Source: Chloroflexota bacterium
GTDB taxonomy: Bacteria > Chloroflexota > Anaerolineae > Fen-1058
DNA: 6,844 nucleotides
NCBI GenBank assembly: GCA_016219235.1
Contig: JACRBO010000585.1
Location: 1-6,844 of the forward strand
Direction of reading: 5' to 3'
Part shown: in pieces, positions 538 to 6,844 of the stretch
Layout of the letters: every line of letters starts with the position of its first letter
Numbering within the stretch: position 1 is the first letter of the stretch
Notes under the pieces: generated by a model
What the model was told of the DNA's origin: nothing
Database searches by the model: none
The model's input: only the letters and a program-made list of their open reading frames with translations
Made by a program: the position numbers and the translations under genes

Positions 538-1170
538 CTAGCTCTGCTTCGCCCCGCACTCGGGACAGAACTTGGGACTGCCACCCATCTTCGCGCCACA
601 CTCGGTGCAGAACTTCTCGCGCTGGATGGGCTGGCCGCACTCACCACAGAATTTGGCGTTAGCCGCGATGCTGGCTCCGCAGTTGGGGCACGCGCCGACG
701 ACGGTCTTGTCGAACTTTTCTTTGGTCACATACGTGGCTTCTTGCGCCACCTGCCGCGCTTGCTGAACGGCTGCCTCGGTCTGCGCGGCGGAATATTCCG
801 CCTCCAGATCCGGGGCGCACTCCAGGCACAGGCCGCGCTGCGGATTCCAGCAGGTGTCGTCCACCCATTTGGCGCAGCGTTTACACTGCTTGAAAAAGCC
901 TTTGACTTCTTCAATCGCCTTCTGGAATTCTTGATCGTGCTGCTTCTCCCACGAGGCCGAGTGGATTTTCTGGCTGGCGTTGGCGGCGCTGCCAAACAGG
1001 CCGCCCAGCAGGCCGCTGGCGACATCGAGCGCGTCGGTCAAGGCGCCGCTGGCCGAGCCGTGAAAGCTGCTTTGATAGCCGCTGCCGCAACGATCGCAGA
1101 AGAACTCGAACTGAAAGCCGCGATCGGTGCTGAGGTCGGTGTGATTACGAGTGAACTTGATAAGCGCCAT
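538..1170 (-). CDS. Multi-zinc-ribbon protein of unknown function
   Basis: This is a 210-residue protein with 15 cysteines, mostly in CxxC knuckles. An N-terminal CDRC (25-28) follows an FQFEFF stretch. A small Gly/Ala-rich segment (38-66) comes next. A central ribbon-like set lies at C96/C99, C107 and C115/C118. An Ala/Gln/Glu-rich helical linker spans about 121-150. Two compact C-terminal zinc ribbons follow: C161/C164 with C175/C178, and C188/C191 with C202/C205, both carrying CGA or CGQ knuckle endings. There is no clear signal peptide or catalytic motif, so a cytosolic protein- or nucleic-acid-binding role is likely, but the partner cannot be deduced. It starts 39 bases after the response-regulator stop on the same strand and could be co-transcribed. 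Its Shine-Dalgarno sequence is weak (an AGAGA-like stretch). The zinc-binding call is firm; the function is unknown. Confidence 0.85.
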   Translation of the reverse strand: MALIKFTRNHTDLSTDRGFQFEFFCDRCGSGYQSSFHGSASGALTDALDVASGLLGGLFGSAANASQKIHSASWEKQHDQEFQKAIEEVKGFFKQCKRCAKWVDDTCWNPQRGLCLECAPDLEAEYSAAQTEAAVQQARQVAQEATYVTKEKFDKTVVGACPNCGASIAANAKFCGECGQPIQREKFCTECGAKMGGSPKFCPECGAKQS

Positions 1171-1209: not shown

Positions 1210-1584
1210 TTAATCGGGGCGGACGGCCAGCCGCAGGCGTTTGGCCATATCCCGCAATTGACTGAAACTGATCGGCTTGATCAGCACCAGATCGGCTTGT
1301 TCGGCCAGGGCATCGGCTTTGACCGGATCGGCCGTGGCGACGATGATGCGAGTCTGGGTCAAGCGCCTGTCCGCCCGAATATGACTCAGGATTTGCTCGC
1401 CATCGACATGGGGCAAGTGGAGGTCCAGGACCACCACGGCCGGCACAATGGATGTCAGGCGAGTCAAGGCCTGCTTACCATCTTGAATGGATTCGACCTC
1501 GAAGTCCGCGTTCTGTACTGCTTCGGCGAAAATATTCGCCAGGTCAATGTCGTCTTCGATGATAAGTGCCAGTGGATTACTCAC
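1210..1584 (-). CDS. Single-domain response regulator (receiver only)
   Basis: This 124-residue protein consists of one CheY-like receiver domain with no output domain. The conserved residues are all visible: the acidic pocket E10-D11-D12, the phosphoacceptor D54 (in VVVLDLHLP), the switch threonine T84 (IIVATAD) and K103 followed by proline (VLIKPIS). It should accept phosphate from a histidine kinase, most likely the one encoded directly upstream, and signal by protein contact as CheY, Spo0F or DivK do. The start is GTG at 1584-1582, inside the kinase stop in a GTGA overlap, which implies translational coupling. An AGGAG 8 bases upstream, within the kinase gene, supports this start. Whether it signals back to the kinase or to a distant effector cannot be seen here. 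Confidence 0.93.
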   Translation of the reverse strand: MSNPLALIIEDDIDLANIFAEAVQNADFEVESIQDGKQALTRLTSIVPAVVVLDLHLPHVDGEQILSHIRADRRLTQTRIIVATADPVKADALAEQADLVLIKPISFSQLRDMAKRLRLAVRPD

Positions 1585-3299
1585 GCCGCTATCTCCTGTG
1601 CCGGTCTTAAGGGGAGCACCACACTGAATGTGCTGCCTTGCCCGACCTGGCTTTGAAGTCTGATTTCACCGCCCATCAGGCCCACCAACTGCTTGACAAT
1701 CGACAACCCCAGCCCGACGCCGGCCTGGTCGCGCGTGGCCGAACTGTCCACCTGATAGAACCAGTCGAACACATGCTCTTGTTCATCCAGCGGAATGCCC
1801 CGGCCTGTGTCGGCCACTTCCAGTAGCCAGTGAGCAGCATCGGGCCGTGCGAGCCGGACGCTAATCGTTCCGCGATCAGTGAACTTGATCGCATTGCTCA
1901 CCAGGTTGATCAGGATTTGACCCAGCCGGCGCGGATCGCCGTCCAGCGCATCCGGCAGATCGGCCGCTACGTTGGTCGTCACTTCAAGGCCCTTGGCCCT
2001 GGCCATGTCAGCCACGACGGCGCCCGTATCGTCGAGCAGTTTCGCCACAGAGAATTCAACCTGTCGCAGTGAGAGTTGGCCCGCTTCCAACTGCGTGCGA
2101 TCGAGCAGGTCATTCACCAGGCCAAGCAGACGCTGCGTATTGGTCAACAGGCGCTCGACCAGGTTAGACTGCTTATCCGTCAGGGGACCATACACCCGCT
2201 CTCGCAAGATCTCGGTGTAGCCCAGAATGGCATTGATCGGCGTGCGCAGTTCGTGCGAAACCATTGAGACGAAGATGCTCTTCATGCGATCCAGTTCCGC
2301 TTCGCGGGTAACATCACGGAACACGCCCACCACGCCACGTCGATGCCCGCTGCTGATATGAACCGGCGCGAAATTAGCGGACAGGGTCTTCTTTGCCCAG
2401 TGCAGGGTGAACGCGATATTATGGTCCAGCGCATCGCCCAGCCGGGCCAGGATGACTGCCCGTTCAGCTGCATCGACCATGTCGCCCGCTAGATCCAGCG
2501 GACTATGGCCGAGAATCTGTTGGGCCGGGAAATCCAACAGGCGCGAAATCGCGGGGTTAGCGACGATGGCCTGGCCCTGGTCGTCAAACACGATCACGCC
2601 GTCGGCGATGCTTTCCAAAATAGCCTGATTCTTGCCTGACTCAGCCTGCACCTGAATCAACGCCTCGGCCAGGTCCTTGGTTCGGTCGGCCACGCGGCGA
2701 TCGAGGTCGCGGTTGATGAGCTGGAGTTCGGTCAGCGCATTTTCCAGGCTGCGCGCCGCCAGCCAGCCGACCAGCGCGATCAACAAGAATTCGATGGTCT
2801 CCAGCAGCAACGGCCCGACGCTCAGGCTGTTGGCCACCGCCAGTCCGAACAACGCCAGACCGACCAGCCCGGCCACAACAAACGAGGCTGCCGGCGCAAT
2901 CAGTACACTGGCCATGATGATGGGCAATACCAGCGCGACGGTAGAGCGACCCGCGACGACTTGCTGCGGCTCGTCAGAGAGCGTCAGGATGATGATGAGT
3001 CCCAACACAAACAGGCTCGCCGCCGTGCTTGAGGGGCGGACGCGATTCAGCCGGTAGAGTCCCAAAATCAGCAGCACGCCGACTGTGCCGCTGACCACGA
3101 TCGAAACCGCGCCCGGACCAAACTTGCCCTGAAGCAAGGCCAGCAGTGCGGTCGCGACCACGGCCACAATACCGGCGACCCCGCTGCCGACCAACAGCAC
3201 ATTGAGCAACCGGCCACGCCGAGCCTGCACCGGATCGGCCTGATCGACGCGCAACAGGTCATCGAGCCGCTGATTGACTCTGCTTTGGAACTCGCTCAA
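1581..3299 (-). CDS. Membrane-bound PAS-domain sensor histidine kinase
   Basis: This is a 572-residue sensor kinase. The N-terminal third holds about six hydrophobic segments (roughly 31-55, 63-82, 92-107, 119-136, 138-157 and 166-183) with no large extracytoplasmic domain, so it probably senses something in or near the membrane. A helical, coiled-coil-like linker spans about 184-222. A PAS domain follows at about 223-332 (AILESIADGVIVFDD...GVFRDVTRE). The HisKA dimerisation helix carries phosphoacceptor H349 in SHELRTPINAILG. The HATPase domain has the N box (N465 and N469 in NLVSNAIKF), G1 (DTGRGIP, 497-503), an F-box region (DWFYQVD, 512-518) and G2 (GVGLGLSIV, 527-535). The start is TTG with GGAGG 5 bases upstream. 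The receiver gene overlaps its stop by 4 bases. It begins 48 bases after the diterpene cyclase stop, so co-transcription with the biosynthetic block is possible. Confidence 0.95.
   Translation of the reverse strand: MSEFQSRVNQRLDDLLRVDQADPVQARRGRLLNVLLVGSGVAGIVAVVATALLALLQGKFGPGAVSIVVSGTVGVLLILGLYRLNRVRPSSTAASLFVLGLIIILTLSDEPQQVVAGRSTVALVLPIIMASVLIAPAASFVVAGLVGLALFGLAVANSLSVGPLLLETIEFLLIALVGWLAARSLENALTELQLINRDLDRRVADRTKDLAEALIQVQAESGKNQAILESIADGVIVFDDQGQAIVANPAISRLLDFPAQQILGHSPLDLAGDMVDAAERAVILARLGDALDHNIAFTLHWAKKTLSANFAPVHISSGHRRGVVGVFRDVTREAELDRMKSIFVSMVSHELRTPINAILGYTEILRERVYGPLTDKQSNLVERLLTNTQRLLGLVNDLLDRTQLEAGQLSLRQVEFSVAKLLDDTGAVVADMARAKGLEVTTNVAADLPDALDGDPRRLGQILINLVSNAIKFTDRGTISVRLARPDAAHWLLEVADTGRGIPLDEQEHVFDWFYQVDSSATRDQAGVGLGLSIVKQLVGLMGGEIRLQSQVGQGSTFSVVLPLRPAQEIAA
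1593..1597 (-). promoter_or_regulatory. Shine-Dalgarno for the receiver gene (GTG start)
   Basis: The minus strand reads AGGAG, 8 bases before the GTG start and within the 3' end of the kinase gene. It supports the GTG start and coupled expression of the two proteins. Confidence 0.75.
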
Positions 3300-3347: not shown

Positions 3348-4838
3348 CTAGCGCGCAAAGATTTCACCATACAAGATCAACGCCGCCAGGATAGCGGCGC
3401 GGATCACCGCGTACGGGGCAAACAGGACTTTGCCAATGTACAGGCCGGGATAAGCGACATCCGGCTCAGTGTAGGCACGCTTCAGAAAGTCGGCCGCCCG
3501 GTGAAACACATCCACGTCGGCCAGGGGGTGCTGGCGGTGAAACTGCAACAAAGCCGTCAAGGCATAGGCCGTCTCTTCAGCCGTGCTCTCGTTGAAAAAG
3601 CCCCACGACCCGTCGTCGCGCTGTGTGTGCAGCAGCCACTCGATGGAATGGACCGCCATGTGGCCGGGCGAGAAACCCTCTTGCAGCAGGGTGATCACCG
3701 CATGGCTTGTCGCGTAATATGGCGAGGCGTGCCATTTGTCGATCCAGTACGTTTCGTAGATCCGATTGGTCAACAGCGCCACCGTGACTTCGTCGTGAAC
3801 TTGCTGTCGATCGGGATAGTCGGGCATCAGCCGCAGCGCGTCGAGCGCGTGCGCATTCACGCCCATACTGATGTTGCGCTCATAATCATAAGTCCGAAAC
3901 AACCGGGTTTTCTTGTCTTCGAAGCGCCGCAAAATCAGTGGATCAAACTCATAGCCGGCTTTGATCAGCAGCTGCGCGCCCACGGAGGTACAGTCGGCGT
4001 CGGCGATGCCGAAGGCCGGATCGAGCGCCAACCCGGCCGGCGTCACACTGGCTTGCAGATCGCGCCACACGTCAGGTCCAGCCAGTTCGGTCACCGGCAA
4101 CCCCGAGTAGGATAAATGCAGCATTACCCACGTCAATTCAAAAATATGGAAAGGATACAGGCAGACAGTCTGCGGGCTGGCTGCCTGCACCGAGTCAAGA
4201 TAAGCCCAGGCGCGCTGATCGTCTGCGTGGAAGGACAAATAGTAAGCGGTGGCAGCGGGGGAACTGCCTAATGAACCGTTAGCACTCTGGGCCGCCCGCA
4301 GCCGATCGGAGTCACCGGCGCGCCCCAGGAATTCCAGTGAATGCGCCGCCGTAATCCGCGACGAGTACAGCATCTCCGGCGGAATCAGGCGTAACTTGGC
4401 GGTTTGAATCTCGCCGTAGCCGCACGTATGCCGGGGGACGTCCAGCCCCAGCGCCTGCGCTTCTTGCAACAGCGTGGGCAGCAGCAATTCAAAGCCTACC
4501 AGCTCAAACGGATCACGCCGCAGGAGATGCAAATGATGCCACAGATAACGCTCGGCGCGTTGAATTGCGTGCGGCGCACGTGGATCGTGCCGGTGATAGT
4601 GGAGCGCGATCAGCGCCGAGATCGTGGAGATAATCCGGTGATGATAGTAGACGACGGTTCCGCCCCAACTGCCGTCTGCCAGCTGATTGCTGAACAGCCA
4701 ATCGAGCAAGGCCGGCCAGCGGGCGTCACCCGTCCCCGATTGATTCAGCCGCGCCAGCCAGGCGATGTCGTAGGCGCTGGGGCTCATCTGCTGATTGAGG
4801 TTTTGAACGAGTAACCGGGCTTCCAGCTTGTAATCCAT
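3348..4838 (-). CDS. Class II diterpene cyclase, Rv3377c / kolavenyl diphosphate synthase type
   Basis: This 496-residue protein matches the length of M. tuberculosis Rv3377c (about 501). The shared landmarks, compared from memory, are SAYDIAWLAR (21-30), a QW-like NQLADGSWG (51-59), FELVGFELLLPTL (111-123), FEDKKTRLFRTYDYE (306-320), DKWHASPYYATSHA (367-380), the second QW-like QRDDGSWGFF (406-415) and TAEETAYAL (419-427). The family protonates geranylgeranyl diphosphate to a bicyclic diphosphate such as halimadienyl, kolavenyl or copalyl diphosphate. The acid motif is DADCTS (280-285): the first Asp and the general acid D282 are present, but the usual last Asp (Thr in Rv3377c) is Cys283. 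There is no class I DDxxD site, so the diphosphate should be retained and passed to the protein encoded just upstream. The start follows an AGAGGGA stretch. The family call is strong; the product skeleton and stereochemistry cannot be read from sequence. Confidence 0.93.
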   Translation of the reverse strand: MDYKLEARLLVQNLNQQMSPSAYDIAWLARLNQSGTGDARWPALLDWLFSNQLADGSWGGTVVYYHHRIISTISALIALHYHRHDPRAPHAIQRAERYLWHHLHLLRRDPFELVGFELLLPTLLQEAQALGLDVPRHTCGYGEIQTAKLRLIPPEMLYSSRITAAHSLEFLGRAGDSDRLRAAQSANGSLGSSPAATAYYLSFHADDQRAWAYLDSVQAASPQTVCLYPFHIFELTWVMLHLSYSGLPVTELAGPDVWRDLQASVTPAGLALDPAFGIADADCTSVGAQLLIKAGYEFDPLILRRFEDKKTRLFRTYDYERNISMGVNAHALDALRLMPDYPDRQQVHDEVTVALLTNRIYETYWIDKWHASPYYATSHAVITLLQEGFSPGHMAVHSIEWLLHTQRDDGSWGFFNESTAEETAYALTALLQFHRQHPLADVDVFHRAADFLKRAYTEPDVAYPGLYIGKVLFAPYAVIRAAILAALILYGEIFAR

Positions 4839-4866
4839 TGAAAAGTCCCTCTATTAGCGAATTTGT

Positions 4867-4877
4867 AAAACAGTTTT
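4867..4877. repeat. Short perfect palindrome in the gap before the cyclase gene
   Basis: AAAAC-A-GTTTT forms a 5-1-5 inverted repeat in the 43-base AT-rich gap between the diterpene synthase stop and the cyclase start. The one-base centre makes a hairpin unlikely, so if it is functional it would be a protein-binding site. It could also be chance in AT-rich sequence. Confidence 0.25.
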
Positions 4878-4881
4878 GGTG

Positions 4882-5799
4882 TTACGGTTGGTCAGGCCAG
4901 ATCACCTGGGGCAGCGGACACCAGACATGGTGATCGATCAATGGCTGCCCGACGCCCAGCACGTGCCGGCGATTAACCCGGTAAAACTCGGCCAGGGTCT
5001 GCCAGTCTTGCGCTGAAAAATCAGCGTAATCGTCGCTAACCCGGCGGGCGTATAGGTGATCGTACAAAATCGAGCGTAGGGTAGGCGCGTCCAGATACAG
5101 CGACGGACTGACCGTGAAGTACAGGTCTTCGTTGCCGGTAGCGATCAGCGGCATATCAAACAGCGTGGGCCGATCGAAGCCGATGAAGAAAGCCAGGGGC
5201 GCAACGTACTCGCCATAGTAGGCTTCGATGATTTCGCGCTTGTCTGGCAGACGCAGCTGATCGCGCTGAAACTGTGCGCCGATGGCGGCGACGGTCTCAG
5301 CCGGATCGTGCGCACAGACGCCGAAGAACAGGCGGTGGCGGCGATGCCGGGCCGTCCGCTGCGTAAGGTCGTCAAAGATCTGCCGGAGCGGCGCGTAGCG
5401 CGCGCCCGACAACCAACGGGCCACATCGCCATACACCCGCACGCGCACGTCATACGCTTCATAGAAATCGAGGAAAGCCGGCTCTTGCGCAAACCAGGCC
5501 AGGCCCAGCTCGGCGAGCTTCAAGTACTCGTCGCCACGCTCCAGCAAATCGGGGCCAAAGACCGGGGTGAGTAAGGTATCGACGCCGTGATCAAACATCA
5601 GACGATAGACTTCAAGGTGCTTTTGCCCCGTGATCTGGAGATAGGCGGATAGATCGGTCAGGTCGGCCTGATCGGGATATTCCAGGCCGAACCAACGGCG
5701 CGTGCCATTGATCGGCAAACCGCAGACCAGCGGCCCGGTCTCACGGACTAACTGGGCGACGTCCGCCGTAGGCAGCTGCTGAAACGTCTCAATGTCCAT
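4882..5799 (-). CDS. Rv3378c-like diterpene synthase / diterpenyl transferase
   Basis: This 305-residue protein aligns along its whole length, from memory, with M. tuberculosis Rv3378c (about 296 residues) and so also with the kolavelool synthase Haur_2146. Shared blocks are NGTRRWFGLEY (31-41), DHGVDTLLTPVFGPDLLERGDEY (70-92), IFDDLTQRT (141-149), REIIEAYYGEYV (188-199), FIGFDRPTLFDMPL (205-218), EDLYFTVSPSLYL (224-236), TLRSILYDHLY (240-250) and VLGVG (280-284). The family has a cis-prenyltransferase-like fold, removes diphosphate from the class II cyclase product and adds water or, in Rv3378c, adenosine. One oddity is Asn31 in place of the Asp of the DGTRRW motif (Asp34 in Rv3378c, reported as important for activity). 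It overlaps the sulfotransferase gene by 11 bases, with a GAGG 9 bases upstream, and precedes its substrate-making cyclase by 43 bases. The exact product is open. Confidence 0.92.
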   Translation of the reverse strand: MDIETFQQLPTADVAQLVRETGPLVCGLPINGTRRWFGLEYPDQADLTDLSAYLQITGQKHLEVYRLMFDHGVDTLLTPVFGPDLLERGDEYLKLAELGLAWFAQEPAFLDFYEAYDVRVRVYGDVARWLSGARYAPLRQIFDDLTQRTARHRRHRLFFGVCAHDPAETVAAIGAQFQRDQLRLPDKREIIEAYYGEYVAPLAFFIGFDRPTLFDMPLIATGNEDLYFTVSPSLYLDAPTLRSILYDHLYARRVSDDYADFSAQDWQTLAEFYRVNRRHVLGVGQPLIDHHVWCPLPQVIWPDQP

Positions 5800-6670
5800 C
5801 AGGCAGCGCCTCGGCCAGAGTCAACAACTGATCCATGCTGCGCAAGTATTCCAGCCAGCCTGGATACAGCGCAAAGTCGTCGGCATGGTAGGCTTCATCG
5901 GGATACAGGGTTTTCACCCGCAGAAAATTGTAGAGCGCGCGTTGTTCGCGCGTCGCCTGCGGCATCTCGGCCAGCGCCTGCGATTGATGATAGTGCCGCT
6001 CGTGGTGTTGAATGTGCGGCGTCATGGCGGCCACTCGCTGTGACGCGGTCTCAGCCGGCAAGCCACACTGCTGATCAAGGAAGTGGCCCAGCCGCGTGCA
6101 CACCGTCTGCGGATCGACGATCAGTTGATCGTAGGCGATGAAGAACTTGCGCCGGCTGGCTTGCGTCAGGGCCAGAATATTCAGCATGCAGTATTGCCAG
6201 TAGGCGAAACCCGCCGAGAACGGCAGTTGATCGGCGGGAATGCCGTCCATCTCGGCCGCCGATAGAATGGTTTCAACCGGATGCCGGACGGTGATGACGT
6301 AGATGACATCACCCCACAGGTTAGCCCAGAACGGCAGCGCCAGGGGCAGCCGCGGGTCCTTCCAGGCCCAGGCGACCGCCTGCTGCGATTGCGCTTCGTC
6401 GTCCATGGCGTCGAGGATTTGTTTCGCGCGCGCCTGATAGATCGGATCGTGCGATTTCTCCACCAGCGACTCGATCGGCGTCGGCACGCGATCGTTGCTG
6501 CCGAGCAGCTCGTCGTTCAGTTTTTGCAGCGCCAGATGTTCCAGATAACCATATCGATCTTCAAACAAATCTTGTTCCTGTCCGACGTAGGCGCCCCAGC
6601 GTTGCGTCAGCGCCGTCGTCAGCGACGTTCCACTCCGATACATTCCCAGCACAATGATGCGATGTGGCAT
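5789..6670 (-). CDS. Sulfotransferase family protein (PAPS-dependent type)
   Basis: This 293-residue cytosolic protein opens with IIVLGMYRSGTSLTTAL (5-21), the 5'-phosphosulfate-binding loop of sulfotransferases. The 3'-phosphate-binding element is YVITVRHPVETILSA (124-138). A WAWKDPRLPLALPFW block (101-115) is typical of a sulfotransferase subgroup I associate with surface-glycan clusters. A YDQLIVDP segment (180-187) matches the usual 'Y-x-DL-x-DP' region of the family. Such enzymes transfer sulfate from PAPS to a hydroxyl or amine. Its stop overlaps the start of the diterpene synthase gene by 11 bases, so the two are probably translated together. A diterpenoid alcohol or its derivative is thus a candidate acceptor, but a glycan or lipid acceptor belonging to the upstream genes remains possible. 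The start is supported by GGAGG 7 bases upstream. The fold call is firm; the substrate is inferred only from context. Confidence 0.88.
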   Translation of the reverse strand: MPHRIIVLGMYRSGTSLTTALTQRWGAYVGQEQDLFEDRYGYLEHLALQKLNDELLGSNDRVPTPIESLVEKSHDPIYQARAKQILDAMDDEAQSQQAVAWAWKDPRLPLALPFWANLWGDVIYVITVRHPVETILSAAEMDGIPADQLPFSAGFAYWQYCMLNILALTQASRRKFFIAYDQLIVDPQTVCTRLGHFLDQQCGLPAETASQRVAAMTPHIQHHERHYHQSQALAEMPQATREQRALYNFLRVKTLYPDEAYHADDFALYPGWLEYLRSMDQLLTLAEALPDGH

Positions 6671-6700: not shown

Positions 6701-6844
6701 TTAAGCCAGCCGCCGTGCCAGCCAATTCATCCAGCGGCCTTGCACGGCATAGCGTGCAAAATGATTGCTGTCAAGTACAAAGCCCAGCCGCTGTTTGATG
6801 TCGTAAGCGCCGCCGCCGCCGTGCAGGGTGTGCAGCCCGGCGTC
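6701..6844 (-). CDS. C-terminal fragment of an unidentified protein
   Basis: One minus-strand frame is open from the window edge to a TAA at 6703-6701, giving the last 47 residues of a gene that starts outside the window. The other two minus-strand frames meet stops. It contains a four-glycine run (9-12) and ends in a basic, aromatic tail: FVLDSNHFARYAVQGRW, then MNWLARRLA. I do not recognise the family. The basic amphipathic end would fit a glycosyltransferase or another peripheral membrane enzyme, but this is a guess. It ends 30 bases before the sulfotransferase start on the same strand, so it probably belongs to the same operon, and its identity would help decide what the sulfotransferase modifies. 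Confidence 0.65.
   Translation of the reverse strand, partial: DAGLHTLHGGGGAYDIKQRLGFVLDSNHFARYAVQGRWMNWLARRLA

Follow-up and report, generated by a model that had tools for sequence, protein, structure and literature searches.

We have analysed a stretch of 6,844 nucleotides from a Chloroflexota bacterium (Anaerolineae, Fen-1058; assembly GCA_016219235.1, contig JACRBO010000585.1), called the window below, in which the genes of a diterpenoid enzyme pair are followed by those of a sensor histidine kinase (HK) and a response regulator (RR). The first enzyme of the pair (TR) is of the Rv3378c type and the second (CY) is a class II diterpene cyclase resembling Rv3377c, both named after Mycobacterium tuberculosis proteins. 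The main genes all lie on the minus strand with operon-like spacing, the gaps being 43 bp between TR and CY and 48 bp between CY and HK, and the overlaps 4 bp between HK and RR and 11 bp between TR and a sulfotransferase gene. The features of these four genes are as follows.

4882..5799, minus strand: TR, Rv3378c-type diterpene synthase/transferase of 305 amino acids, cis-prenyltransferase fold
5707..5709, minus strand: codon (AAT) of TR Asn31, at the Asp34 position in the alignment with Rv3378c
3348..4838, minus strand: CY, Rv3377c-like class II diterpene cyclase of 496 amino acids (PDB sequence match to Rv3377c; SQHop_cyclase_C, E 6.6e-8)
3987..4001, minus strand: DxDxT protonating-acid motif DADCT, CY residues 280-284
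3420..3422, minus strand: CY Phe473, at the Tyr479 position in the alignment with Rv3377c
1581..3299, minus strand: HK, sensor histidine kinase with a TTG start (six-transmembrane sensor, PAS, HisKA and HATPase_c; Pfam)
2655..3299, minus strand: six-transmembrane sensor domain of HK, residues 1-215 (AlphaFold2 model)
1210..1584, minus strand: RR, stand-alone receiver-domain response regulator of 124 amino acids (Pfam Response_reg, E 2.4e-17, residues 7-114)

TR has the Rv3378c variant of the cis-prenyltransferase fold together with a nearly full-length sequence match to Rv3378c (E 9.6e-66, 225 bits, 39-41% identity), and is more distant from the Herpetosiphon enzyme (27% identity, E 5e-20). 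For CY, the PDB sequence search gives Rv3377c with an E value of 4.4e-59, compared to 1.8e-6 to 3.3e-6 for squalene-hopene cyclases, and the hopene-cyclase NCBIfam is matched with a score of only 26.9 against a cut-off of 431.1. A squalene-hopene cyclase reading of CY is thus rejected, and an ordinary cis-prenyltransferase reading of TR is likewise ruled out by the scores, neither family providing the best match. The original prediction, made from the letters of the window, had described a two-gene diterpenoid cassette, rare in bacteria, in a gene order reversed relative to M. tuberculosis, and encoding a free-living version of the pathway whose product it left unnamed. Its family assignments hold, the pair being real, and so does the free-living version. 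The order from TR to CY is instead identical to that in M. tuberculosis. The pairing is also not rare, as 1921 database proteins match TR, the TR clade is present in 14 of 400 sampled Chloroflexota genomes, and the pair recurs in Anaerolineae.

We now turn to the genes that follow the pair. A pattern-seeded scan, with Asn in its seed pattern, gave 60 genome loci, 59 of them from Chloroflexota by title. In 48 of the 60, TR and the cyclase share a strand and the cyclase comes next. In six of the remaining 12 the contig ends just past TR (L001, L019, L029, L045, L050, L059), in two the cyclase is on the opposite strand from TR (L034, L053), and in four no cyclase adjoins TR (L014, L027, L033, L038). 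The HK sensor domain was found after the cyclase in 42 of the 43 loci with at least 700 bp there, the exception being L025, and the estimated gap between cyclase and HK is about 100 bp or less in 41 of the 42 and 613 bp in the other. Where at least 2400 bp follow the cyclase, which is so in 41 loci, the receiver comes next after HK in 39. It was not found there in L025 and L041, and L041 has a receiver about 3.2 kb past the cyclase. The kinase-enzyme linkage is solid, and the supposed two-gene cassette turns out to be a longer operon, of which the six-helix HK and the receiver are the most constant further members. A named strain, Longilinea arvoryzae KOME-1 (L020), carries this same cassette. 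A signalling role would be the best-supported reading. In Legionella erythra (L034:10001-12572) the pair is convergent and the cyclase appears as two reading frames; no sensor-domain match was found in that genome.

The AlphaFold2 model of the sensor domain consists of six long helices with a mean confidence (pLDDT) of 95.9. A Foldseek search with this model gave no significant match, and no CqsS or LqsS entry was among the matches listed, while the Pfam search of the domain gave only weak, mixed matches. Residues 1-215 were also searched in the 400-genome Chloroflexota sample, where no more than seven candidates were scored in each genome, so that negatives from this search are not absolute. 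The domain was found in 18 genomes, namely in all 14 with a close TR and in four of the other 386 (G050, G236, G396 and, weakly, G292). This search did not detect it in the 10 genomes having a Herpetosiphon-type TR, nor in the 30 genomes with a class II cyclase but without a close TR. In 13 of the 14 close-TR genomes the frame that bears the sensor is of kinase length (562-705 amino acids). In G015 the copy beside TR sits on a STAS domain, and six further copies are on other contigs. The seven copies of this genome (L123, L124, L125, L126-L128) occur in kinase, longer hybrid-like and STAS contexts.

It is important to consider also the cases in which the module is rearranged. L025 has a single protein in which a cyclase is fused to a receiver domain with 52% identity to RR of the window. 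A protein in another record (P0242) is 99% identical to it, and is the only carrier of a receiver domain among the 120 listed relatives, according to precomputed Pfam labels. The HK gene of the L025 genome is on a separate contig. An ICMT-like gene adjoins it on one flank, and a FemAB-like gene lies on the opposite flank after one intervening gene, both being recurrent cassette members; the module is here split but kept. The kinase of G404 is unlinked from the cassette yet retained. In G371 no cyclase was detected, and HK and RR come directly after TR; two genomes retain the HK-receiver pair where the enzymes were not found.

Exchange of partners between cassettes was examined with trees of the two enzymes. 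Among the 48 rows, seven have a window-type cyclase. These group together as a clade in the tree of the cyclases, with a branch support (SH-aLRT) of 100, whereas for the TR tree the approximately unbiased (AU) test rejects such a clade (p 0.0015, an optimistic value because the group was named after the identities had been seen). In L047 the cyclase is window-like and TR is distant; the reverse is seen in L003, L006 and L008. The cassette is modular, with the position of the kinase fixed. A mirror-tree test, run on the 33 rows in which every part is present, gave correlations between all pairs and no signal specific to the sensor.

The catalytic residues of TR deviate from those of canonical cis-prenyltransferases, in which the catalytic, metal-binding residue is Asp26 in UppS of Escherichia coli. 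The Asp34 position of Rv3378c, which we take to be that of this Asp, is occupied in TR by Asn31. Since the seed pattern contained Asn, the 60 loci were not used as evidence on this point, and the counts rest on an unseeded protein search and on the phylum sample. Asn was found in 119 of the 120 nearest TR relatives (113 by script pattern, 6 by eye) and in all 14 close TRs of the sample. Second TR copies in G076 and G015, of intermediate similarity (32% identity), have Asp, and Herpetosiphon-type proteins have Gly (9 of 10) or Ala (1 of 10). In this unrooted comparison, which gives no direction of change, the usual Asp is replaced in two branches of the family. This replacement suggests that ionisation rests on arginines, perhaps with the metal held otherwise. 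The catalytic tyrosines and the Arg-Arg pair are kept in the alignment with Rv3378c (Y53, Y92, R34 and R35) and are invariant in a 30-row alignment; Y51 and Y90 of Rv3378c are the residues changed in PDB entry 4kt8, as its title indicates. The closest relative of TR (P0001), 92% identical to the protein of the window, has Asp at position 31, so that even nearly identical enzymes differ in this residue. It would be a bold reading, on which the present evidence is neutral, that the Asn-Gly pair auto-deamidates to yield a catalytic Asp; P0001 has an Asp there natively.

In CY, the protonating DxD(D/T) motif is present, and Asp282 was found in all 120 database relatives and in 51 of 52 locus rows. 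Compared to Rv3377c, Tyr479 is replaced by Phe473 and Ala475 by Gly469. Tyr479 has been proposed as the base leading to the halimane product, in the part of PMC9814783 that we draw on. The Tyr base of the halimadienyl (tuberculosinyl) diphosphate synthase is thus Phe in CY, which makes a tuberculosinyl skeleton less likely for its product, judging from the alignment, although 92 of the 120 cyclase relatives have Tyr at this position and 28 have Phe.

The window can now be compared with known systems. The M. tuberculosis pair Rv3377c-Rv3378c, which leads to 1-tuberculosinyladenosine, has Asp34 and Tyr479 where the window has Asn31 and Phe473. In addition, the cyclase of the window is followed by kinase and receiver genes, whereas the M. 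tuberculosis operon contains isoprenoid-supply genes, as described in the section of PMC3470408 used here. Haur_2145-Haur_2146 of Herpetosiphon aurantiacus (L130), which makes kolavelool, consists of the same two families adjoining each other with two-component genes beside them, in the order hybrid HK, RR, CY, TR, methyltransferase, RR. It differs from the window in its low identity (27% for TR and about 28% for CY), in its reversed gene order, in the Gly at the Asp34 position, in a hybrid kinase without a match to the six-transmembrane sensor, and in a methyltransferase of CMAS/UbiE type rather than an ICMT-like one. Among 11 Herpetosiphon-branch loci, a hybrid HK was found in seven and a cyclase near TR in nine; L136 and L141 have weak HK-like matches only, and at L135 and L138 neither an HK nor a cyclase was seen. 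Because six of the seven hybrid-HK loci are close relatives of L130 (itself counted), the association represents perhaps two independent lineages.

Two further similarities concern only parts of the system. The HK of the window has the layout of CqsS and LqsS, that is, a six-transmembrane sensor without a periplasmic domain, adjoining a synthase gene whose product would be lipophilic. In the cqs and lqs neighbourhoods the synthase gene (cqsA, lqsA) is beside the kinase gene in the same manner. However, the window has terpenoid enzymes in place of an alpha-hydroxyketone synthase, and the likeness is, as far as the comparisons go, one of architecture. CY resembles Tpn2 and PtmT2 as a single-function class II cyclase with a DxD acid, but its partner is an enzyme of cis-prenyltransferase fold instead of a class I terpene synthase.

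The remaining genes of the window are the following.

6701..6844, minus strand: 3' end (47 amino acids) of a FemAB-like acyltransferase, truncated by the window edge, a recurring cassette neighbour ("cluster 2")
5789..6670, minus strand: sulfotransferase (Sulfotransfer_3, Pfam PF13469, E 1.3e-10)
538..1170: zinc-ribbon protein gene, after the RR gene

The FemAB-like end is 98% identical over 47 amino acids to a 366-residue protein of L001, which matches FemAB_like with an E value of 5.9e-13. Beyond the RR and zinc-ribbon genes there is a gene for an Rrf2 regulator. The closest named relative is a Thermoflexales metagenome-assembled genome (L001 and L150 in G002), with identities of 85% for TR, 93% for the sulfotransferase, 94% for the cyclase and 90% for HK, so that the window probably comes from an anaerolinean related to it; a zinc-ribbon gene is also downstream of HK in the sister contig L150.

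Family names of the neighbouring genes rest on one or few representatives. Upstream genes vary over the 60 loci, with the FemAB-like cluster in 32, GT87 in 24 and an ICMT-like methyltransferase in 18, and a sulfotransferase family is near TR in four (L001, L017, L018, L060), as well as in L077 and the window. Radical-SAM/B12 proteins come directly after TR in L003 (8453-10045) and L125 (1851-3413), and one was also seen after TR in L014; in L027 (2639-4225) a flavin monooxygenase takes this place. These are possible tailoring enzymes. About 3-9 kb upstream of TR in one subclade (L039, L040, L043, L046, L049 and others) there are nucleoside hydrolase, ECF transporter and ribokinase-like genes, named by reading the sequences by eye. 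They are suggestive in view of terpene nucleosides, yet distant, and possibly plain synteny. Finally, in two Chloroflexota loci a gene of the HAD hydrolase family lies between cyclase and TR (L136:9209-9889, plus strand; L141:2947-3624, minus strand). Rv3376, a HAD protein, adjoins the M. tuberculosis pair according to the text consulted of PMC11476799, and an older three-gene association of HAD gene, cyclase and TR is possible.

From the observed families, predicted folds, residue changes, gene order and co-occurrence we infer a product, a ligand and a direction of signalling as follows. Through the acid of its DxD motif, CY would protonate geranylgeranyl diphosphate and so form a bicyclic diphosphate. 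With Phe in place of the Tyr base, this intermediate is more likely to be of some type other than the tuberculosinyl one. TR would then ionise the diphosphate in the cis-prenyltransferase pocket, with the Arg-Arg pair, both tyrosines and Asn for Asp, and add water or another acceptor to the ionised intermediate. The lineage-variable tailoring genes (FemAB-like acyltransferase, ICMT-like methyltransferase, GT87, sulfotransferase) would decorate the product, which, presumably lipophilic, would lie in the membrane and bind the six-helix sensor domain. HK would phosphorylate the receiver. The Pfam search of the window proteins showed no output domain in RR, DNA-binding or other, and the one natural cyclase-receiver fusion suggests that the receiver would act on the cyclase itself. 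That this conserved operon joins a diterpenoid enzyme pair to an HK and receiver that sense its product and feed back on the pathway is the account we favour, with a probability of roughly 0.45. By analogy with lipophilic-autoinducer systems, the pathway may best be read as being wired to its own two-component sensor. An extension to diterpenoid quorum sensing, with a lineage-decorated autoinducer, a private six-helix kinase and a receiver acting on the cyclase, and with the virulence-lipid genes of M. tuberculosis descended from, or sharing an ancestor with, a signalling pathway, is attractive but rather unlikely.

The same linkage data would be expected if the kinase and receiver regulate the pathway by another membrane or redox cue, the diterpenoid being a membrane lipid or defence compound and not the ligand. 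The cyclase-receiver fusion can just as well be explained by control of the enzyme, and the presence of the HK-receiver pair in two genomes without detected enzymes is in line with such a cue. On the other hand, the sensor tracks the enzyme clade and was not detected in 30 genomes with other class II cyclases, and the receiver is without a DNA-binding output domain; we consider this explanation possible but somewhat doubtful.

Another option is a free-living cassette of the M. tuberculosis type, making a terpene nucleoside or a tuberculosinol-like alcohol as a membrane or defence lipid, with the kinase as a separate neighbour. The closer similarity of TR to Rv3378c than to the Herpetosiphon enzyme, the conserved tyrosines and the nucleoside-handling genes that one subclade has at about 5-9 kb upstream agree with this, but the Asn31 and Phe473 replacements do not, and the kinase linkage outlasts partner exchange and is kept where the cassette is split, which renders it improbable. 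It could also be argued that the constant gene order is inherited Anaerolineae synteny, uninformative on function, considering that the loci of the seeded scan with a six-transmembrane kinase are all Chloroflexota by title and that the distances between the parts correlate as under common descent. However, the kinase has stayed in place while cassettes exchanged their TR and cyclase partners and while the upstream genes vary, and in G404 the kinase is retained without linkage. We therefore regard synteny alone as very improbable.

To our knowledge, no two-component system is known that has a bacterial diterpenoid as its dedicated ligand. In the open-access literature, the coverage of which excludes most subscription journals, we found no paper joining the two themes. 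Within its clade the enzyme pair is nothing unusual; the novelty lies in how tightly and recurrently it is wired to a private membrane kinase and receiver, and in the substitutions at catalytic positions. The recurrent linkage gives a concrete candidate pair of receptor and ligand, and a candidate ligand class for a six-transmembrane sensor of the adenylyl-cyclase/MASE kind. The 1921 matches to TR and the 59 Chloroflexota among the 60 seeded loci bear on the origin of the M. tuberculosis genes, and the Asn/Gly/Asp variation makes the metal-Asp model testable with free-living enzymes. If the product is indeed sensed, the enzyme pair would be part of a signalling circuit and not a rare oddity.
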